DNA of 64,000 nt, from contig QXPY01000004.1 of assembly GCA_003583745.1 (NCBI GenBank), positions 1-64,000 of the forward strand. The letters are read 5' to 3'. Positions 1,746-52,800 of this stretch are shown here, piece after piece; positions within the stretch are counted from its first letter, which is position 1, and each line of letters begins with the position of its first letter. Under the pieces are notes generated by a model, which saw only the letters and a list, made by a program, of their open reading frames with translations, searched no databases and was not told the DNA's origin. The position numbers and the translations under genes were made by a program. The stretch is from Rhodocyclales bacterium GT-UBC (GTDB lineage: Bacteria > Pseudomonadota > Gammaproteobacteria > Burkholderiales > Rhodocyclaceae).

Positions 1746-3035
1746 ATGAATTCGACTCCCGACAACACCGGCGCAGCCCTGCTCGCCCAACTCAACAAGG
1801 CGCCGAAAGGCTTTTTGCCCAGTGGCCGCAAGCGCTGGCTGATCGGTGGCGGCGCGCTCGCCCTGCTGCTGGCGCTCGTTTTGCTGCTGGGCGGCGACAA
1901 GGGGCCGACCGGGCAGTTCATCAGCGAAGAAGTGGTGAGCGGCAAGTTGCTGGTCACCGCCTCGGCCAGCGGCACCTTGCAGCCGACCAAGTCGGTCGAC
2001 GTCGGCAGCGAATTGTCCGGAACGCTGGCCAGCGTGCTGGTGCAGGAAAACGACGTGGTCAAGAAAGGCCAGTTGCTGGCCCAGCTCGATACCGCCAAGC
2101 TCAAGGATGCGGTTGCCAAGTCGGCAGCGGCGGTGGCTTCGGCCGAGGCGGCAGTGGCCCAGGCGCAGGCGACGGTGGCCGAGGCGCGTGCCTCGCTGTC
2201 GCGGATGCGGCAGGTGGCGGAGTTGTCCGGCGGCAAGGTGCCGGCCAAGACCGAGCTGGAAACGGCGGAAGCGACCTTGCTGCGGGCCAATGCCAATGAG
2301 GCCAGCGCCCGGGCGGATGTAATCCAGGCGCGGGCGACGCTGAAGACCGACGAAACCAATCTGGGCAAGGCGACCATCCGTTCGCCGGTCGATGGTGTCG
2401 TGCTGACCCGCAAGGTCGAGCCGGGCCAGACCGTCGCAGCGACGATGACGACGCCGGTGCTGTTCTCGCTGGCCGAGGATCTCTCCAAGATGGAGTTGCA
2501 GGTCAAGGTCGACGAAGCCGATGTCGGCAACGTCAAGAATGGCCAGCAAGCCACCTTTACCGTCTCGGCCTGGCCGGGCCGCAAATTCCCGGCCAGCATC
2601 CAGCGGGTCGGCATTGGTTCGACGACGACCGACAACGTGGTGACCTACAAGACCATCCTGCAGGTCAATAACGACGATCTGGTGCTGCGCCCGGGCATGA
2701 CGGCGACGGCCAGCATTGTCACGGCCGAGCGCGAGAACGCCTTGCTGGTGCCCAACGCAGCCTTGCGTTTTACCCCGCCGACGCTGGGCGGCGGGCCGCA
2801 GCGCAGTTTCGTTTCGCGTCTGCTGCCCGGGCCGCCGCCTGACATGACGAAGAAGCGCCCGGCCGCGACGCCTGTTCAGAGTGGCGAGGCGCGGGTCTGG
2901 GTGAAGGGCGAAGAAGGCCCGCAGCCACTGGCGATCAAGACCGGGGTCAGCAATGGCCGGCAGACCGAAGTGCTGGGCGGCGAATTGAAAGCCGGCATGA
3001 TGGTGATCACCGACTACCAGGAAGCCAAAAAGTGA
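1746..3035 (+). CDS. macA: Periplasmic adaptor (membrane fusion protein) of MacA type
   Basis: Links the inner-membrane ABC permease to the outer-membrane channel. About 429 aa: cytoplasmic N-terminus, one transmembrane helix at about 31-50, a split biotinyl/lipoyl-like barrel around an Ala-rich alpha-hairpin (about 115-205), then beta-barrel and membrane-proximal domains ending in GMMVITD. The hairpin and barrel motifs (RSPVDGVVL, VEPGQTV) are those of HlyD/MacA adaptors. ATG 1746 follows the previous stop (1741-1743) by two bases; an in-frame TTG at 1740 is an alternative start. The following ATPase and separate FtsX-like permease argue for a MacAB-like pump rather than an RND pump. The gene symbol is by analogy. 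Confidence 0.85.
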   Translation: MNSTPDNTGAALLAQLNKAPKGFLPSGRKRWLIGGGALALLLALVLLLGGDKGPTGQFISEEVVSGKLLVTASASGTLQPTKSVDVGSELSGTLASVLVQENDVVKKGQLLAQLDTAKLKDAVAKSAAAVASAEAAVAQAQATVAEARASLSRMRQVAELSGGKVPAKTELETAEATLLRANANEASARADVIQARATLKTDETNLGKATIRSPVDGVVLTRKVEPGQTVAATMTTPVLFSLAEDLSKMELQVKVDEADVGNVKNGQQATFTVSAWPGRKFPASIQRVGIGSTTTDNVVTYKTILQVNNDDLVLRPGMTATASIVTAERENALLVPNAALRFTPPTLGGGPQRSFVSRLLPGPPPDMTKKRPAATPVQSGEARVWVKGEEGPQPLAIKTGVSNGRQTEVLGGELKAGMMVITDYQEAKK

Positions 3036-3075
3036 TGTTCGGCAAGCCGGCGAAGGGTAATGACGGGATGTCGCG

Positions 3076-3786
3076 ATGAGCCAGCCCCTGATCGAATTGC
3101 GCGCCATCACCAAGACCTACGGTCAGGGCCAGGCGGCGTTTCAGGCCTTGCGCGGGGTCGATCTGCAAATCGAGGCCGGCGAGTTCGTGGCCGTGATGGG
3201 GCCGAGTGGCTCGGGCAAGTCGACGGTGATGAACCTGCTCGGCTGTCTCGATACCCCGGGCAGCGGCGAATACCTGTTTCAGGGCATCCACGTCGAGCAG
3301 CTCGACCGCAACCAGCGGGCCTTGCTGCGCCGGCAATGCCTGGGCTTCGTCTTCCAGGGCTTCAACCTGCTGGCCCGGACGTCGGCACAGGAAAATGTCG
3401 AGTTGCCCTTGCTCTATCGCGGCGAACCGGCCGAGGTCCGGCATGCCGCCGCCCTGGCGGCGCTGGCCAAGGTCGGCCTGGCCGAGTGGGCGCATCACAC
3501 CCCGGCCGAGCTGTCGGGCGGCCAGCAGCAACGGGTGGCGATTGCCCGGGCGATCGTCACCAACCCGCTGGTCCTGCTTGCCGACGAGCCGACCGGCAAC
3601 CTCGACAGCCAGCGCAGCCACGAAATCATGGAGCTGCTGGTCAGGCTCAACCAGGAGCAGGGCATTACCGTGCTGATGGTGACCCACGAACCGGACATGG
3701 CGCGCTATGCCCGCCGTATCGTGCATTTCGTCGACGGCCTGGTGCATCGCGACGAACGTAATCCGGAGGCCGCGCCATGTTGCTGA
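3076..3786 (+). CDS. ABC transporter ATP-binding protein, MacB/LolD type
   Basis: Cytoplasmic ATPase that drives the MacB-type permease encoded next. 236 aa, one nucleotide-binding domain: Walker [10 protein letters not shown] at 42-50, Q-loop in [12 protein letters not shown] signature LSGGQQQ near 146-152, Walker [12 protein letters not shown] near 166-176 and the switch His in VMVTHEPD. The GNLD after Walker B is typical of the LolD/MacB/FtsE group. E. coli MacB has ATPase and permease in one chain; here they are separate and overlap by 10 bp in different frames. Both have complete domain ends, so this is a normal two-gene arrangement and not a frameshift. Confidence 0.93.
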
Positions 3787-4985
3787 ACGCATTGCTGCTG
3801 GCCCTGCGCGAGATCCGGCGCAACCTGCTGCGCTCCTTCCTGACCGTGCTCGGCATCGTCATCGGGGTCGCCGCAGTGATCACCATGGTGACGCTGGGCA
3901 ATGGCGCAACCCGCATGGTGGCCGACCAGATCGCCAGCCTGGGCAGCAACCTGCTGATGGTGATGCCAGGCCAGCGCCTGGGGCCGGGTCGGGATAGCGC
4001 CGGGGCGCCGAAGTTCAAGATTGCCGATATCGAAGCCATCGAGCAGCAGGTCAATGGCCTGAAAGCCGTGGCACCGGTGGTGGGCAGCGCGGTGACGCTG
4101 GTCGCCGGGACGCAGAACTGGTCATCCACGGTGAGCGGCACGACCAACGACTATTTTGTCGTCGGCAACTGGCGGCTGGCCGCCGGGCGGCTGTTTTCCG
4201 AGGATGAGGACCGGGCCGGCAAGGCGGTGTGCATCATCGGCAATACCGTCAAGAAAGAGCTGTTCGGCAATCAGAGCCCGCTCGGCAGCAGCATCCGGGT
4301 CAAGACCTTCGACTGCGAGGTGATCGGCCTGCTCGCCGCCAAGGGGCAGGGCGGCATGGGGCAGGACCAGGACGATACGGTGCTGATGCCCTTGCGTACC
4401 GCACAACGCCGGCTGACCGGGACGCTGGATATCGGCAACGTGATGGTTTCGCTCAAGGACGGCACCAATTCGACCGTGGCCATGGCGCAGCTGCGCAGCC
4501 TGTTGCGCGAGCGGCGCAAGCTGGCCGACAACGTCGATGACAACTTCAACGTGATGGATACCAAGCAGATCGCCGAAACGCTGTCCGGCACGATCGGCAC
4601 CATGACGGCGCTGCTTGGTGCGGTGGCGGCGGTCAGCCTGCTGGTCGGCGGTATCGGAATCATGAACATCATGCTGGTCTCGGTGACCGAACGGACGCGC
4701 GAAATCGGCATCCGGCTGGCCATCGGCGCGCTGGAGCACGAGGTGCTGTTGCAGTTCCTGATCGAGGCCGTCGCCCTGTCGGCCTTCGGCGGGCTGGTTG
4801 GCATCGCGCTCGCCTTCGTCGCCTGTCTGGGCTTGTCGGCGCTGATGCGCATGCCTTTCCTGTTCAACCCCGGCATCAACCTGACCGCCTTCTTCTTCTC
4901 GGCGGCGATTGGCGTCATCTTCGGCTTCGTCCCGGCTCGCCGGGCGGCGCGGCTCGATCCGATCGAGGCGTTGCGCCACGAGTAA
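3777..4985 (+). CDS. ABC transporter permease, MacB/FtsX family
   Basis: Inner-membrane partner of the ATPase at 3076-3786. 402 aa with the MacB topology: one helix near residues 20-42, a large periplasmic MacB_PCD domain (about 45-265), then three helices near 275-305, 325-350 and 365-385, ending in the conserved [15 protein letters not shown] tail. Mechanotransmission-type permeases of this kind move substrate from periplasm through the outer-membrane channel rather than across the inner membrane. Last gene of the operon. A 14-nt-loop inverted repeat (5019-5026/5041-5048) lies downstream but has no T-tract, so the end of transcription is unclear. Confidence 0.92.
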
Positions 4986-5066
4986 AGCGCCGAGCGGAGG
5001 GCATGGCTCTGCGATAATGCCCGGTCTGTGCCCAACGAACGACCGGGCGTCATCTGGAGAAGCCGT

Positions 5067-5810
5067 ATGAATCCGACCCTCGAACTCCTGCATTCGCACC
5101 GCAGCGACCGTTCTTTCACCGATCAGCCTTTGAGCGAAGCCGAGCTCGATGCCATTGTCGAGGCCGCCTATCGCGGCCCGACCTCGATCAACGGCCAGCA
5201 GGTGTCGCTGGTTGTCGTCCGCGATCCGGCCCGCCGTGCCCGCCTGGCCGAGATCGCCGGCGGCCAGCCGTGGATTGCCAAGGCACCGGTATTCATCACG
5301 GTGCTGATCGATTTCAACAAGACCGCCAAAGCGGTTGCCGCTGCCGGCGAACGGCAGGTGGTGCATGAAAGCGTCGAGGGCTTTGGCGTCGGGGCGGTCG
5401 ATGCCGGGATCGCCCTGGCCAACCTGATGCTGGCGGCCCGCGCCCAGGGCTTGGGGGTGGTGCCGATCGGCGGCATTCGCAAGGATGCGCAGGCGGTGAT
5501 CGACCTGCTGCAACTGCCGTCGCTGACTTATCCGATCTGCGGCGTGGCGATCGGTCATGTTGCCCAGCCGGCGCAGCAGAAGCCGCGCCTGCCGATCCAG
5601 ACTTTCCGGCATGAGGAAACGTATGACGCGCAGGCCTTGTCGCCGACGGTCATCGCTGCCTACGATGCGACGATCACCGATTACTGGCAGCGTATCGGGC
5701 GCAGTGACGGCTTGCCGTGGAGTCGCAACCTGGCCAACGTCTACAAGCTGGTCTATTACCGCAATACCAAGCCGATGGCCGCCAAACAGGGTTTCCTCAA
5801 TGACAAGTAG
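5067..5810 (+). CDS. Nitroreductase-family NAD(P)H-dependent flavin oxidoreductase (NfsA-like)
   Basis: 247 aa, close to NfsA/FRP-type oxygen-insensitive nitroreductases. The N-terminal HRSDRSF motif (FMN phosphate binding), the RGPTSINGQ segment and the GIRKD motif match this family. Expected to be a soluble FMN dimer reducing quinones, nitroaromatics or flavins with NADPH; the real substrate is unknown. ATG 5067 is chosen because GGAGA (5056-5060) lies 6 nt upstream and homologues begin here; a longer in-frame reading from 5028 has no such support. Followed 9 nt later by a Cys-cluster protein gene. Confidence 0.88.
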   Translation: MNPTLELLHSHRSDRSFTDQPLSEAELDAIVEAAYRGPTSINGQQVSLVVVRDPARRARLAEIAGGQPWIAKAPVFITVLIDFNKTAKAVAAAGERQVVHESVEGFGVGAVDAGIALANLMLAARAQGLGVVPIGGIRKDAQAVIDLLQLPSLTYPICGVAIGHVAQPAQQKPRLPIQTFRHEETYDAQALSPTVIAAYDATITDYWQRIGRSDGLPWSRNLANVYKLVYYRNTKPMAAKQGFLNDK

Positions 5811-39810: not shown

Positions 39811-39838
39811 AAAAAAAACCCCGCTCGCAGCGGGGTTT
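39811..39838 (-). terminator. Rho-independent terminator of the candidate sRNA
   Basis: 10-bp GC-rich stem (39816-39825 with 39829-39838), 3-nt loop, and eight consecutive T on the minus strand (39818-39811). The plus strand lacks a T-tract, so the terminator works for minus-strand transcripts. Confidence 0.9.
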
Positions 39839-39937
39839 GAAGTTCTCGAAAGGGGGTTTCGAGAGGAGGGGTTCAATGCACGATTGCAGTGTACGTTCCC
39901 CGGAGCGCCCCGTCTGTCGTGCTTTCGTAGCCTTGTG
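39811..39937 (-). ncRNA. Candidate small RNA with C-rich anti-Shine-Dalgarno segments
   Basis: Minus strand, between two terminators and with no credible gene. A perfect -35 TTGACA (39970-39965) is followed after 15 nt by TACATT (39949-39944), so a start near 39937 is expected. The transcript of about 125 nt would contain: a long-range stem (39917-39922 with 39878-39883, 6 bp); an unpaired CCCCTCC (39871-39865); an 8-bp stem (39857-39864 with 39844-39851) with a CCCCC apical loop; and a terminator stem of 10 bp (39829-39838 with 39816-39825) plus eight T. CCCCTCC is complementary to Shine-Dalgarno sequences, as in C-rich-loop riboregulators. No Rfam family recognised. Confidence 0.6.
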
Positions 39938-39964
39938 TAACAGAATGTAGCTGCGGTGCAGCAA

Positions 39965-39970
39965 TGTCAA
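39965..39970 (-). promoter_or_regulatory. -35 element (TTGACA) of the candidate sRNA
   Basis: Consensus TTGACA on the minus strand, about 30 nt downstream of the terminator of the 60-aa gene. Possible -10 hexamers are TACATT at 15 nt or CATTCT at 17 nt. Confidence 0.5.
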
Positions 39971-40089: not shown

Positions 40090-40272
40090 TCAGTGCTCGA
40101 TCTTGCAGATTTCGACGGCGCTGGTCGGGATCTGGTAGTCGGCGGCCAGTTGGGACTTCGCGATCTCTTCGATGGCGATGCCTTCGCTCAGGGCGAAGCG
40201 GCGCGCGCCAGAGTAATCCTGGGGCAGTCCGGCACGGTCCTGGGTGATCCGATAGTGGATTTTGACGTTCAT
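40090..40272 (-). CDS. Conserved-looking small protein, 60 aa
   Basis: 60 aa, no family recognised. Begins MNVKIHYRITQDRAGLPQDY and ends EICKIEH; mixed beta/alpha, no signal or membrane segment, one Cys near the end. Convincing as a gene: GGAGC at 7-nt spacing before the ATG, a promoter (TTGCGC-N16-TATACT), a terminator 50 bp downstream, and normal codon use. The KIHYRI start and even spacing suggest a small cytosolic dimer-type fold, but function is unknown. It is a single-gene unit between mobA and the candidate sRNA. Confidence 0.75.
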   Translation of the reverse strand: MNVKIHYRITQDRAGLPQDYSGARRFALSEGIAIEEIAKSQLAADYQIPTSAVEICKIEH

Positions 40273-41765: not shown

Positions 41766-41861
41766 TGGCGGAAGAGAGCAGGAGTCGAACCTACCAAGGC
41801 TTGTCTGACAAGCCCTACCGGTTTTGAAGACCGGTCGCCCCACCGGGGAACGATCTCTTCC
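41766..41861 (-). tRNA. selC: Selenocysteine tRNA (tRNA-Sec, anticodon TCA)
   Basis: 96 nt including an encoded CCA (41768-41766). 8-bp acceptor stem starting GGAAGAGA (41861-41854) paired with 41777-41770, discriminator G at 41769, long variable arm, T-loop GGTTCGACTCC, anticodon TCA at 41827-41825 in loop CTTCAAA. The 8-bp acceptor and UCA anticodon identify tRNA-Sec. It lies 5 nt after the selB stop and 14 nt before the GcvH-like gene, so it is probably cut from a polycistronic transcript. Confidence 0.96.
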
Positions 41862-49843: not shown

Positions 49844-52800
49844 TTAGATCTTCTCGATGTTGACGAGGAATGACTTGAATTCCGGCGTCTGCGTGTTGGC
49901 ATCACCGACGAACGGCGTCAGGGTGTTGGACAGGAAGCCCATCTTGGCCTGACCCTTGAAGCCCCAGTGAATGGGGATGCCGACGTGGTGCACCTTCTGG
50001 CCGTTGACGTTCAGTCCCTTGATCCGCTTGGTGACCACCGCCACGGCCTTGATGTGACCGCGGTTGGAGCGCACCTTGACCTTGTCGCCGCTGGCAATGC
50101 CTTTCTCCTTGGCCAGTTCCTCGCCGATTTCGACAAACTGTTCCGGCTGCAGGATCGCGTTGATCTTGGCGTGCTTGGTCCAGTAGTGGAAATGCTCGGT
50201 CAGGCGGTAGGTCGTTGCGGCATACGGGAAGTCCTTGGCATTGCCGAATACTTCCATGTCGCCCTTGAACACGCGGGCGGCCGGATTGCTGATCGCCTTG
50301 GGATTGGTGTTCATCGGGTTGGTGCCGATCGGTGTTTCGAACGGTTCGTAATGTTCCGGGAAGGGGCCTTCCGCCATCTTGTCGACGGCGAAGAAGCGGG
50401 CGATGCCCTCCGGGTTCATGATGAACGGCCCCATGCCGTCGGCCGGGTTGGAGTCGGCCTTGAAGTCGGGGATGTCCGAACCGGTCCACGCCGTACCGTT
50501 CCACCAGATCTGCTTGCGCTTCGGATTGAACGGCTTGCCGTTGGTGTCGGCCGAGGCGCGGTTGTACAGGATGCGCCGGTTGGCCGGCCAGGCCCACGAC
50601 CAGTTCAGCGTCTGGCCATTGCCCCACGGGTCGGAATTGTCGCGCCGCGCCATGTTGTTGCCGGCCTGCGTCCACGAACCGCAGAAGATCCAGCAGCCGC
50701 TGGTCGTCGTGCCGTCGTCGCGCAACTGGGCGAAGCCGTCCAGTTGTTCGCCGGCCTTGCGGATCAGCTTGGTCGGGTCCTTCGGGTCGTAGAGGTCGAC
50801 CAGCGCGCGGCCGTTGTACTCCTTGGCCACTTCGTCCGGGGCCGGCTCTTCCGGGTTCTTGTAGTTCCAGGTGAGGTTGAGCAGGGCATCCGGGAAGGCG
50901 CCGCCCTTTTCCTTGTACATCGCCTTGAGCTTCAAGTAGATGCCGGCCATGATCGCCGGGTCGGTCTTCGCCTCGCCCGGGGGTTCGGCGCCCTTCCAGT
51001 GCCATTGCAGCCAGCGGCCGGAGTTGACCAGCGAACCGTCTTCCTCGGCAAAGCAGGTGGAGGGCAGGCGGAATACCGTGGTCTGGATCTGAGACGGATC
51101 GACATCGTTGTATTCGCCGAAATTCTTCCAGAATTCGGAAGTCTCCGTCGCCAACGGATCGATCACCACCAGATACTTCAGCTTGGCCAGCGCCGCGCCC
51201 AGCTTGGCCTTGTTCGGGAACGAGGCGAGCGGGTTGAAGCCCTGGCAGAAATAGCCGGCCATCTTGCCCTGGTACATATTGTCGAAGACCTGGAGGACGT
51301 CGTGCATCTTGTCCAGTTTGGGCAGGAAGTCGAAAGCCCAGTTGTTGTCCTTGGTGGCGGCATCACCGAACCAGGCCTTCATCAGGCTGACGTGGAACTT
51401 CTCGTAGTTCTGCAGGTAGGACATCTGGTTCGGGCGCAACGGCTTCGGTGCCCGCTTGGCGATGTAGGTCGCGTAGTCGGTTTCCTTCTCGCCCGGCAGG
51501 GTCAAATAACCCGGCAGCAGGTTCGACATCAGGCCGAGGTCGGTCAGGCCCTGGATGTTGGAGTGACCGCGCAGCGCGTTCATGCCGCCACCGGCGACAC
51601 CGATGTTGCCGAGCAGCAGCTGCACCATGGCGCCGGTGCGGATCATCTGCGAACCCTGCGAGTGCTGCGTCCAGCCCAGTGCGTACATGATGGTCATGGT
51701 CCGGTCGCCGCTGGCGGTGGACGCCATCAGTTCGCAAACCTTGGTGAAGGCGGCCTGCGGCGTGCCGCAGATCTTCTCGACCATTTCCGGCGTGTAGCGG
51801 CTGTAGTGCTGCTTCATCAGCTGGTAGACGCAACGCGGGTCCTGCAGCGTCGGGTCGGTCTTAACGTAGCCGTCTTCACCCTTGACGTAGTTCCAGGTGG
51901 ATTTGTCGTAGCTGCGCTTTTCGCCGTTGTAGCCCGAGAACAGGCCATTGTCGAAGGTATAGCCCTCGCTCACCAGGAACGAGAAGTCGGTGTAAGCCTT
52001 GACGTATTCGTGATGAATCTTGTCGTTGGTCAGCAGGTAATTGATGACGCCGCCCAGGAAGGCGATGTCGGTGCCGGTACGGATCGGCGCATAGAAGTCG
52101 GCGACCGAAGCGGTGCGCGTAAAGCGCGGGTCGACCACGACCAGCTTGGCCTTGTTCTGCTTCTTCGCTTCAATAACCCACTTGAACCCAACCGGGTGTG
52201 CTTCGGCGGCATTGCCCCCCATCACCAGCACGATATCGGCATTCTTGATATCGACCCAGTGATTGGTCATTGCGCCACGGCCGAATGTCGGAGCCAGACT
52301 GGCTACCGTCGGGCCGTGTCAAACACGTGCCTGGTTGTCGAATGCAATCGCGCCGAGGGAGCGGATGACCTTGTGGGTGATGTAACCGGATTCGTTGCTG
52401 GATGCGGAGGCGGCGAGGAAGCCGGTGCTCAGCCAGCGATTGACGGTGGCGCCGTCGGCGTTCTTGGCGATGAAGTTAGCGTCGCGATCTTCCTTCATCA
52501 GCGTGGCGATGCGGGTGAAGGCTTCATCCCAGGAAATGCGCTTCCATTCCTTGCTGCCGGCTTCGCGCACTTCCGGGTGCTTGAGACGGTTCGGGCTATG
52601 CACGAAGTCGAGCAGGCCGGCGCCCTTCGGGCACAGTGCGCCGCGATTGACCGGGTGATCCGGGTCGCCTTCGATGTGCATGATTTCCGCATGGACATTC
52701 TTCGACTTGTCGCCGATCGAATACATCAGGATGCCGCAGGCTACCGAGCAGTACGGACAGGTGTTCCGTGTCTCGGTGGCGCGAGCCAGCTTGTAAGTCC

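Follow-up and report, generated by a model that had tools for sequence, protein, structure and literature searches.

Double-hairpin 'toxic' sRNAs occur widely in Betaproteobacteria, and little is known about how they are controlled. Their toxicity was reportedly first described by Kimelman in 2012, according to papers that cite that work. In enteric bacteria, OmrA/OmrB and MicF are trans-acting sRNAs under the control of OmpR.

The accessible text on B. cenocepacia describes double-hairpin sRNAs of family RF02278 (ncS03, ncS05, ncS27 and ncS62) as ~60-70 nt long, with an unpaired C/U-rich 5′ tract, a hairpin 1 and a terminator. They are present in several copies per genome, and their CU-rich unpaired tracts are complementary to ribosome-binding sites (RBSs), which they are predicted to cover. 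Overexpression of ncS27 slowed growth, and the authors state that it is not known what governs how these sRNAs accumulate (PMC5688073). In the same source, NmsR of Neisseria is described as homologous sRNAs with CU-rich unpaired tracts pairing with RBSs; the likeness to the RNA reported here is drawn from that description, and NmsR sRNAs differ in being arranged in tandem (PMC5688073). According to the available part of a preprint, S17S, the short form of B. pertussis S17, is a 67-nt relative of RF02278 that arises by processing of a longer precursor containing a 32-aa ORF; it co-purifies with Hfq, represses BP2158 in a reporter via RBS pairing, and showed no clear toxicity in E. coli (PMC11722255, preprint). 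In the open-access literature, which leaves most subscription journals outside, the accessible texts yielded no paper that deals with the RNA reported here or with regulation of RNAs of this kind by RstA, and no RstA-controlled anti-Shine-Dalgarno sRNA.

Here we analyzed a window of 64,000 nucleotides from Rhodocyclales bacterium GT-UBC, in which 39881-39811 on the minus strand is a stand-alone, strongly conserved regulatory-RNA gene of ~71 nt. The gene is delimited by conservation, fold z-score and a covariance model, and its predicted 5′ end (+1 near 39881) is placed from the -10 element. From 5′ to 3′, the RNA would carry an unpaired GAACCCCUCCU (39874-39864) as anti-Shine-Dalgarno site 1, in which the conserved CCCCUCC contains CCUCC, the anti-Shine-Dalgarno core. 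Hairpin 1 follows (39864-39844), with 8 bp in the form TCTCGAAA-CCCCC-TTTCGAGA and a loop at 39856-39852 that is a possible site 2, and then an intrinsic terminator with eight T, AAACCCCGCTGCGAGCGGGGTTTTTTTT (39838-39811). The hairpin with its CCCCC loop and the CCCCTCC immediately upstream, both pointed out in the sequence-only reading, were found on direct reading and are part of the conserved 71-nt core; the terminator it named is present too and is also a scan match. Conservation, structure, retention without the neighboring cytochrome in three genomes and weak reciprocal kinship with RF02278, published members or relatives of which act at RBSs, give good support to an independent gene for an sRNA whose unpaired C-tracts are complementary to Shine-Dalgarno (SD) sequences. 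The sequence-only reading had proposed such a unit and taken it for an anti-SD sRNA: its gene, C-tracts and terminator stand, but its promoter, 5′ end and long-range stem were not borne out.

The window RNA has the layout of RF02278 (unpaired C/U 5′ tract, hairpin 1, terminator), but it differs by having a hairpin 1 that is short, perfectly paired and closed by a CCCCC loop, by another promoter, and by GAACCCCUCCU in place of the 5′ UGUCUCCUCCA-type sequence, which is absent. Rfam at gathering threshold returned nothing in the sRNA stretch. A permissive search of the stretch gave 16 matches up to E 10, with RF02278 (Betaproteobacteria toxic sRNA) at 21.8 bits, below its gathering threshold of 50. 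As Trp_leader (22.7 bits) and anti-hemB (21.6 bits; best E 0.0075) are about level with it, the permissive score of the window alone does not single out RF02278; these two families were set aside because the analysis went further with RF02278 alone, for which reciprocal matches and matches to orthologs were obtained. The RF02278 model finds seven window orthologs at 29.2-32.7 bits (60 genomes, 36 of them of the genus). Conversely, our covariance model R1, which was built from the RNA types A and B described below, matches 19 of 24 RF02278 loci at E <= 1, 13 of them below 0.01 and the best at 4.2e-5, scores to which the shared terminator and C-tracts may contribute. Since the gathering score is not reached, we file the RNA as a new subfamily that would act like the double-hairpin sRNAs and not as an RF02278 member; it adds a clear conserved RNA below the threshold of Rfam. 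The genome itself has five RF02278 matches, three above the cut-off. One of these copies (L081, G000:C1:4008-4071; 64.4 bits) has the S17-type sequence TGTCTCCTCCACCCTCCTCCTTTGGTG and no RstA-type box.

The candidate operator of the window gene (39949-39915, minus strand) reads TACATTCTGTTACACAAGGCTACG and then GACA, i.e., TACA/TACA/TACG/GACA repeats at a spacing of 10, 10 and 11 bp, and its TACATTCTGTTACA at 39949-39936 is an exact TACA-N6-TACA. The RstA box has been published as TACATNTNGTTACA, with TACA-N6-TACA as its classic form in the accessible text (PMC4117788), and on this comparison the predicted switch resembles a site to which a stress-sensing regulator of RstA type would bind. The box is found with at most one mismatch in 56 of the 57 orthologs and exactly in 6, compared with 2.6% and 0.11% in shuffles. 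It also occurs at -75 to -35 of the non-S17-type RF02278 copies of the genus (at most one mismatch in 14 of 23 and none in 6, with shuffles at 2.9% and 0.13%), two of which (L214 and L215) have identical upstream sequence. The S17-type copies of the genus differ in this respect from the window, with a box in 0 of 11; the split into S17-type and other copies was made after inspection and the stretches compared differ (110 and 40 nt). Plain GTTACA stands upstream of only 6 of 37 RF02278 copies. Within the genome itself, the operator pattern has three exact sites, a match that is partly circular as the pattern was drawn after the window site and L082 were known, and beyond these there is no enrichment (16 sites with up to two mismatches, 14 in the reversed control). 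A scan with a three-repeat pattern (34 versus 52 in the control) is uninformative because this pattern misses the window's own site. One of the three exact sites (L103, G000:C13:21303-21321) lies upstream of an ORF starting MIRNPNTESTQFLQ. A site with two mismatches (L104, G000:C2:255376-255394) lies near an ORF starting MNKSLIALALIGAF, which presumably resembles a porin signal peptide.

The RNA has relatives of three types. The window orthologs constitute type A, while type B (L058-L062 and L064) has the same promoter layout and a different terminator. Type C (e.g., L063, L065 and L067-L069) shares the core, which stands directly 3′ of a small ORF, and is closer in layout to S17 than the window RNA is. 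Paralogues with an identical promoter layout stand at other loci. Model R1 matches in 22 of 150 family genomes and scores 47.4-56.5 bits against five type C loci. At nine A/B-type loci, the kinase and regulator genes in the vicinity turned out to be distant homologues (~25-37% identity) and were set aside.

A type C copy is present in the genome itself at C7:169828-169906. In the surrounding stretch (L142, G000:C7:164500-170500), positions 2759-5410 carry, behind DnaK-/DnaJ-like ORFs, an RstA-like regulator and an RstB-like kinase. Past the kinase come a GTTACA element, ORFs of 36 and 60 aa (no Pfam or NCBIfam match for either), the type-C anti-SD RNA and a terminator. RstA and RstB clearly lead the NCBIfam matches of the regulator and kinase, yet the scores stay below the equivalog cut-offs (299.5 versus 330 for the regulator, 328.3 versus 478 for the kinase). 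Fourteen type C loci lie behind an RstA-RstB-like pair, with the kinase inside the fetched stretch in 13 of them and, at the fourteenth (G142), ~1.5 kb upstream in a wider stretch. For 9 of the 13 the core was located, and in 7 of these 9 GTTAC[AG] lies 427-436 nt upstream of it.

An exact-hairpin scan of a collection of 84,980 genomes gave 103 stretches, and the 80 of these among the matches listed come mostly from Dechloromonas, Azonexus and relatives. Among the matches listed (80 of 103), 53 have the A/B promoter with GTTAC, and 23 are type C with a kinase match 438-916 nt away on the same strand, the same small ORF in 23 of 23 and the regulator gene also inside the stretch in 17. As type C was defined in this survey by the kinase match, its independent evidence is the constant distance, the strand and the small ORF alone. 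Three other listed matches have a terminator, i.e., L257 and L274 (each with its own TACA-repeat promoter) and L284 (type C near the stretch end). L257 and L274, on named beta-proteobacterial contigs, are distant relatives of the RNA with a longer terminator and a TACA-repeat promoter (TACATTTCTTTACA in L257). A match in the archaeon Halopiger (L293) has no terminator and was taken as chance.

Relative to the enteric RstA regulon as described in the accessible text, the TACA-N6-TACA direct repeats are shared and an RstAB-like pair borders a paralogue, but the window has three to four repeats that abut the -35, and the regulator scores under the equivalog cut-off. The same sRNA gene and mode of action could also be combined with an operator that belongs to another OmpR/PhoB-family regulator, OmpR/RisA-like and not RstA. 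Direct-repeat sites are common to OmpR-family regulators, and GTTACA is the RisA ChIP-seq consensus in B. pertussis (391 of 430 peaks), where the accessible text also places RisA binding near sRNA genes (PMC11019879). However, the spacing in the window fits TACA-N6-TACA, and an RstAB-like pair stands in physical linkage with the type-C paralogue; we regard a regulator of this other kind as unlikely, though still worth keeping in mind. Under RstA-type control, a response regulator of the OmpR/PhoB family, for which the RstA-like protein of the lineage is the likeliest candidate, would bind the TACA repeats at 39949-39915 and activate a promoter with a poor -35 of its own (CAGACG/TACACT). As the paralogue ends a small operon behind the kinase gene of the RstAB-like system, several anti-SD RNAs are probably under the joint control of that system. 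The likeness to OmrA/OmrB and MicF is that of a trans-acting sRNA under an OmpR-family regulator, which is predicted here, and is drawn by mode and not by sequence.

The predicted fold of the 71-nt core has two hairpins and leaves the 5′ end open, at -24.5 kcal/mol (z -4.78), which 0 of 200 shuffles equal. Like this core, the longer RNA drawn in the sequence-only reading folds better than chance (z = -1.95; 6 of 200 shuffles as good). The alignment rows comprised 68 cores from 70 loci (L066 and L070 gave no script match), 66 of them distinct; dropping the odd rows L013 and L037 together with five type C cores left the 59 rows of alignment A2. Across these rows the two-hairpin fold pairs in 98.5% of cells, compared with 20.5-57.0% in slid controls, and CCCTCC is unchanged in all 59 aligned A/B rows. 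The covariance analysis gave 17 cells altered on both sides versus 3.5 in shuffles, and the A-U pair closing hairpin 1 becomes U-A in 11 rows. As the stem columns are mostly invariant, this covariation rests on two pairs, and two further measures over the 59 rows (pairs changed on both sides; further pair types) were not above shuffles. The window, itself one row of model R1, scores 89.2 bits against it. A terminator scan gave 6 terminator-like sites in 1.8 kb compared with 2.6 in shuffles, the terminator at 39838 among them. ORFs that cross the sRNA stretch run through spacer of variable sequence. The fusion of type C to an mRNA end and the invariance of most stem columns would suit a merely conserved terminator with flanking DNA sites and no functional RNA. 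This is very improbable, as the unpaired CCCCTCCTCTCG upstream of the terminator is invariant or almost so, and each of types A and B comes with a promoter of its own at fixed spacing.

Conservation was assessed with the 210-base stretch 39990-39781 (minus strand) in 100 genomes, 61 of which gave a match. Within the genus 57 of 60 genomes matched (own included), and the three without a match are assemblies that are 70, 79 and 89% complete. Among 40 genomes of other families, the 4 matches covered the terminator only. The orthologs are related by descent, so their counts are not independent. The same cytochrome adjoins downstream in 54 of the 57 orthologous loci and the 60-aa gene in 21 of 57; as neither neighbor is always present, the RNA gene is independent of both. 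The frequent adjacency of the cytochrome might suggest that the hairpins act in cis on that gene, as its leader or attenuator. However, the cytochrome has its own TATAAT past the terminator at 39786-39781, as the sequence-only reading had noted (TATAAT-like in 52 of the 57; missing in L042, L043, L045, L051 and L054), same-promoter paralogues stand elsewhere, and the RNA is kept at three loci where no cytochrome is detectable (L043, L045 and L054). We rejected a leader and consider it extremely improbable.

The 60-aa ORF (40090-40272, minus strand) has relatives in the 21 loci with 57-78% identity besides its own copy and no match in Pfam or NCBIfam, and direct reading found the terminator-like stem previously placed behind it at 40039-40001. 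Elsewhere, the window contains parts of the selenocysteine system as identified by Rfam models, i.e., a predicted tRNA-Sec at 41770-41861 (minus strand; RF01852, 71.5 bits) and a SECIS_3 element at 52266-52324 (minus strand; RF01989, 85.4 bits).

All 57 orthologs have a -10-like hexamer exactly 18 nt past ACAGAC. In the window this is TACACT (39893-39888), preceded by the poor -35 CAGACG (39916-39911) within a conserved CGACAGAC block. Mean pairwise identity is 0.94 in this block and 0.85 in the hexamer, compared with 0.35 in the 18-base spacer and 0.27 further upstream. Being free in sequence and fixed in length, the spacer resembles a promoter spacer, and the conserved promoter, as predicted from this geometry, is CAGACG/TACACT. 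Its position places the 5′ end near 39881, not near 39937 as claimed before, and thus gives an RNA of ~71 nt. At scan threshold, no sigma-70-like promoter was found in 1.8 kb. A longer RNA that starts from a TTGACA -35 and closes with a 6-bp long-range stem, as drawn in the sequence-only reading, is extremely improbable: the TTGACA at 39970-39965 and the complementary 6-mers are present in the genome itself, but among the 57 orthologs the window alone has TTGACA upstream, all six pairs are possible in 11 of 57, mean pairing over the orthologs is 0.681 versus 0.677 +/- 0.011 for shuffled partners, and the conserved promoter lies in between.

The ~71-nt RNA would end at the strong terminator, and its U-tail could load Hfq. 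The genome has hfq (Hfq 103.1 bits), and with the 8-U tail, encoded by the eight T of the terminator, a predicted Hfq dependence is plausible. The unpaired GAACCCCUCCU, perhaps together with the CCCCC loop, would pair with SD regions and block translation, comparable to RF02278 and B. pertussis S17; the window RNA should thereby probably repress translation at SD sequences, silencing genes by covering their RBSs. Complement searches in the genome itself gave 661 versus 355 and 39 versus 11 matches relative to the reversed pattern, an excess that can be explained by SD and G-rich sequence. In 76 genus genomes the exact 14-nt complement had 13 matches versus 5 in the control. The target search by the complement of the C-tract, proposed earlier with SD sites in mind, revealed no conserved target in the genome itself or in the 76 genus genomes: among the 14-nt complement loci read, no gene was common to more than three genomes, one ORF being common to two related genomes and another to three. 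A chemotaxis-receptor-like ORF of the genome itself (L235; assigned by reading the sequence) did not recur among the complement loci read.

Collectively, we find it fairly probable that the window RNA represents a new subfamily of anti-SD sRNAs, for which a response regulator of RstA type is the probable activator. For a group of sRNAs whose control is poorly known, the conserved operator of RstA type found on one branch, together with the paralogue at an RstAB-like locus, names a candidate regulator. More tentatively, and somewhat short of an even chance in our view, one RstAB-like system in Dechloromonas/Azonexus-type bacteria may command a whole set of anti-SD RNAs, i.e., the window sRNA, the type-B paralogues, some RF02278 copies and the 3′-end RNA of the operon behind rstB, and on signal apply a graded translation brake to many mRNAs with strong SD sequences. 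The parts of such an RstAB-anti-SD circuit are known, and the circuit itself would be new.
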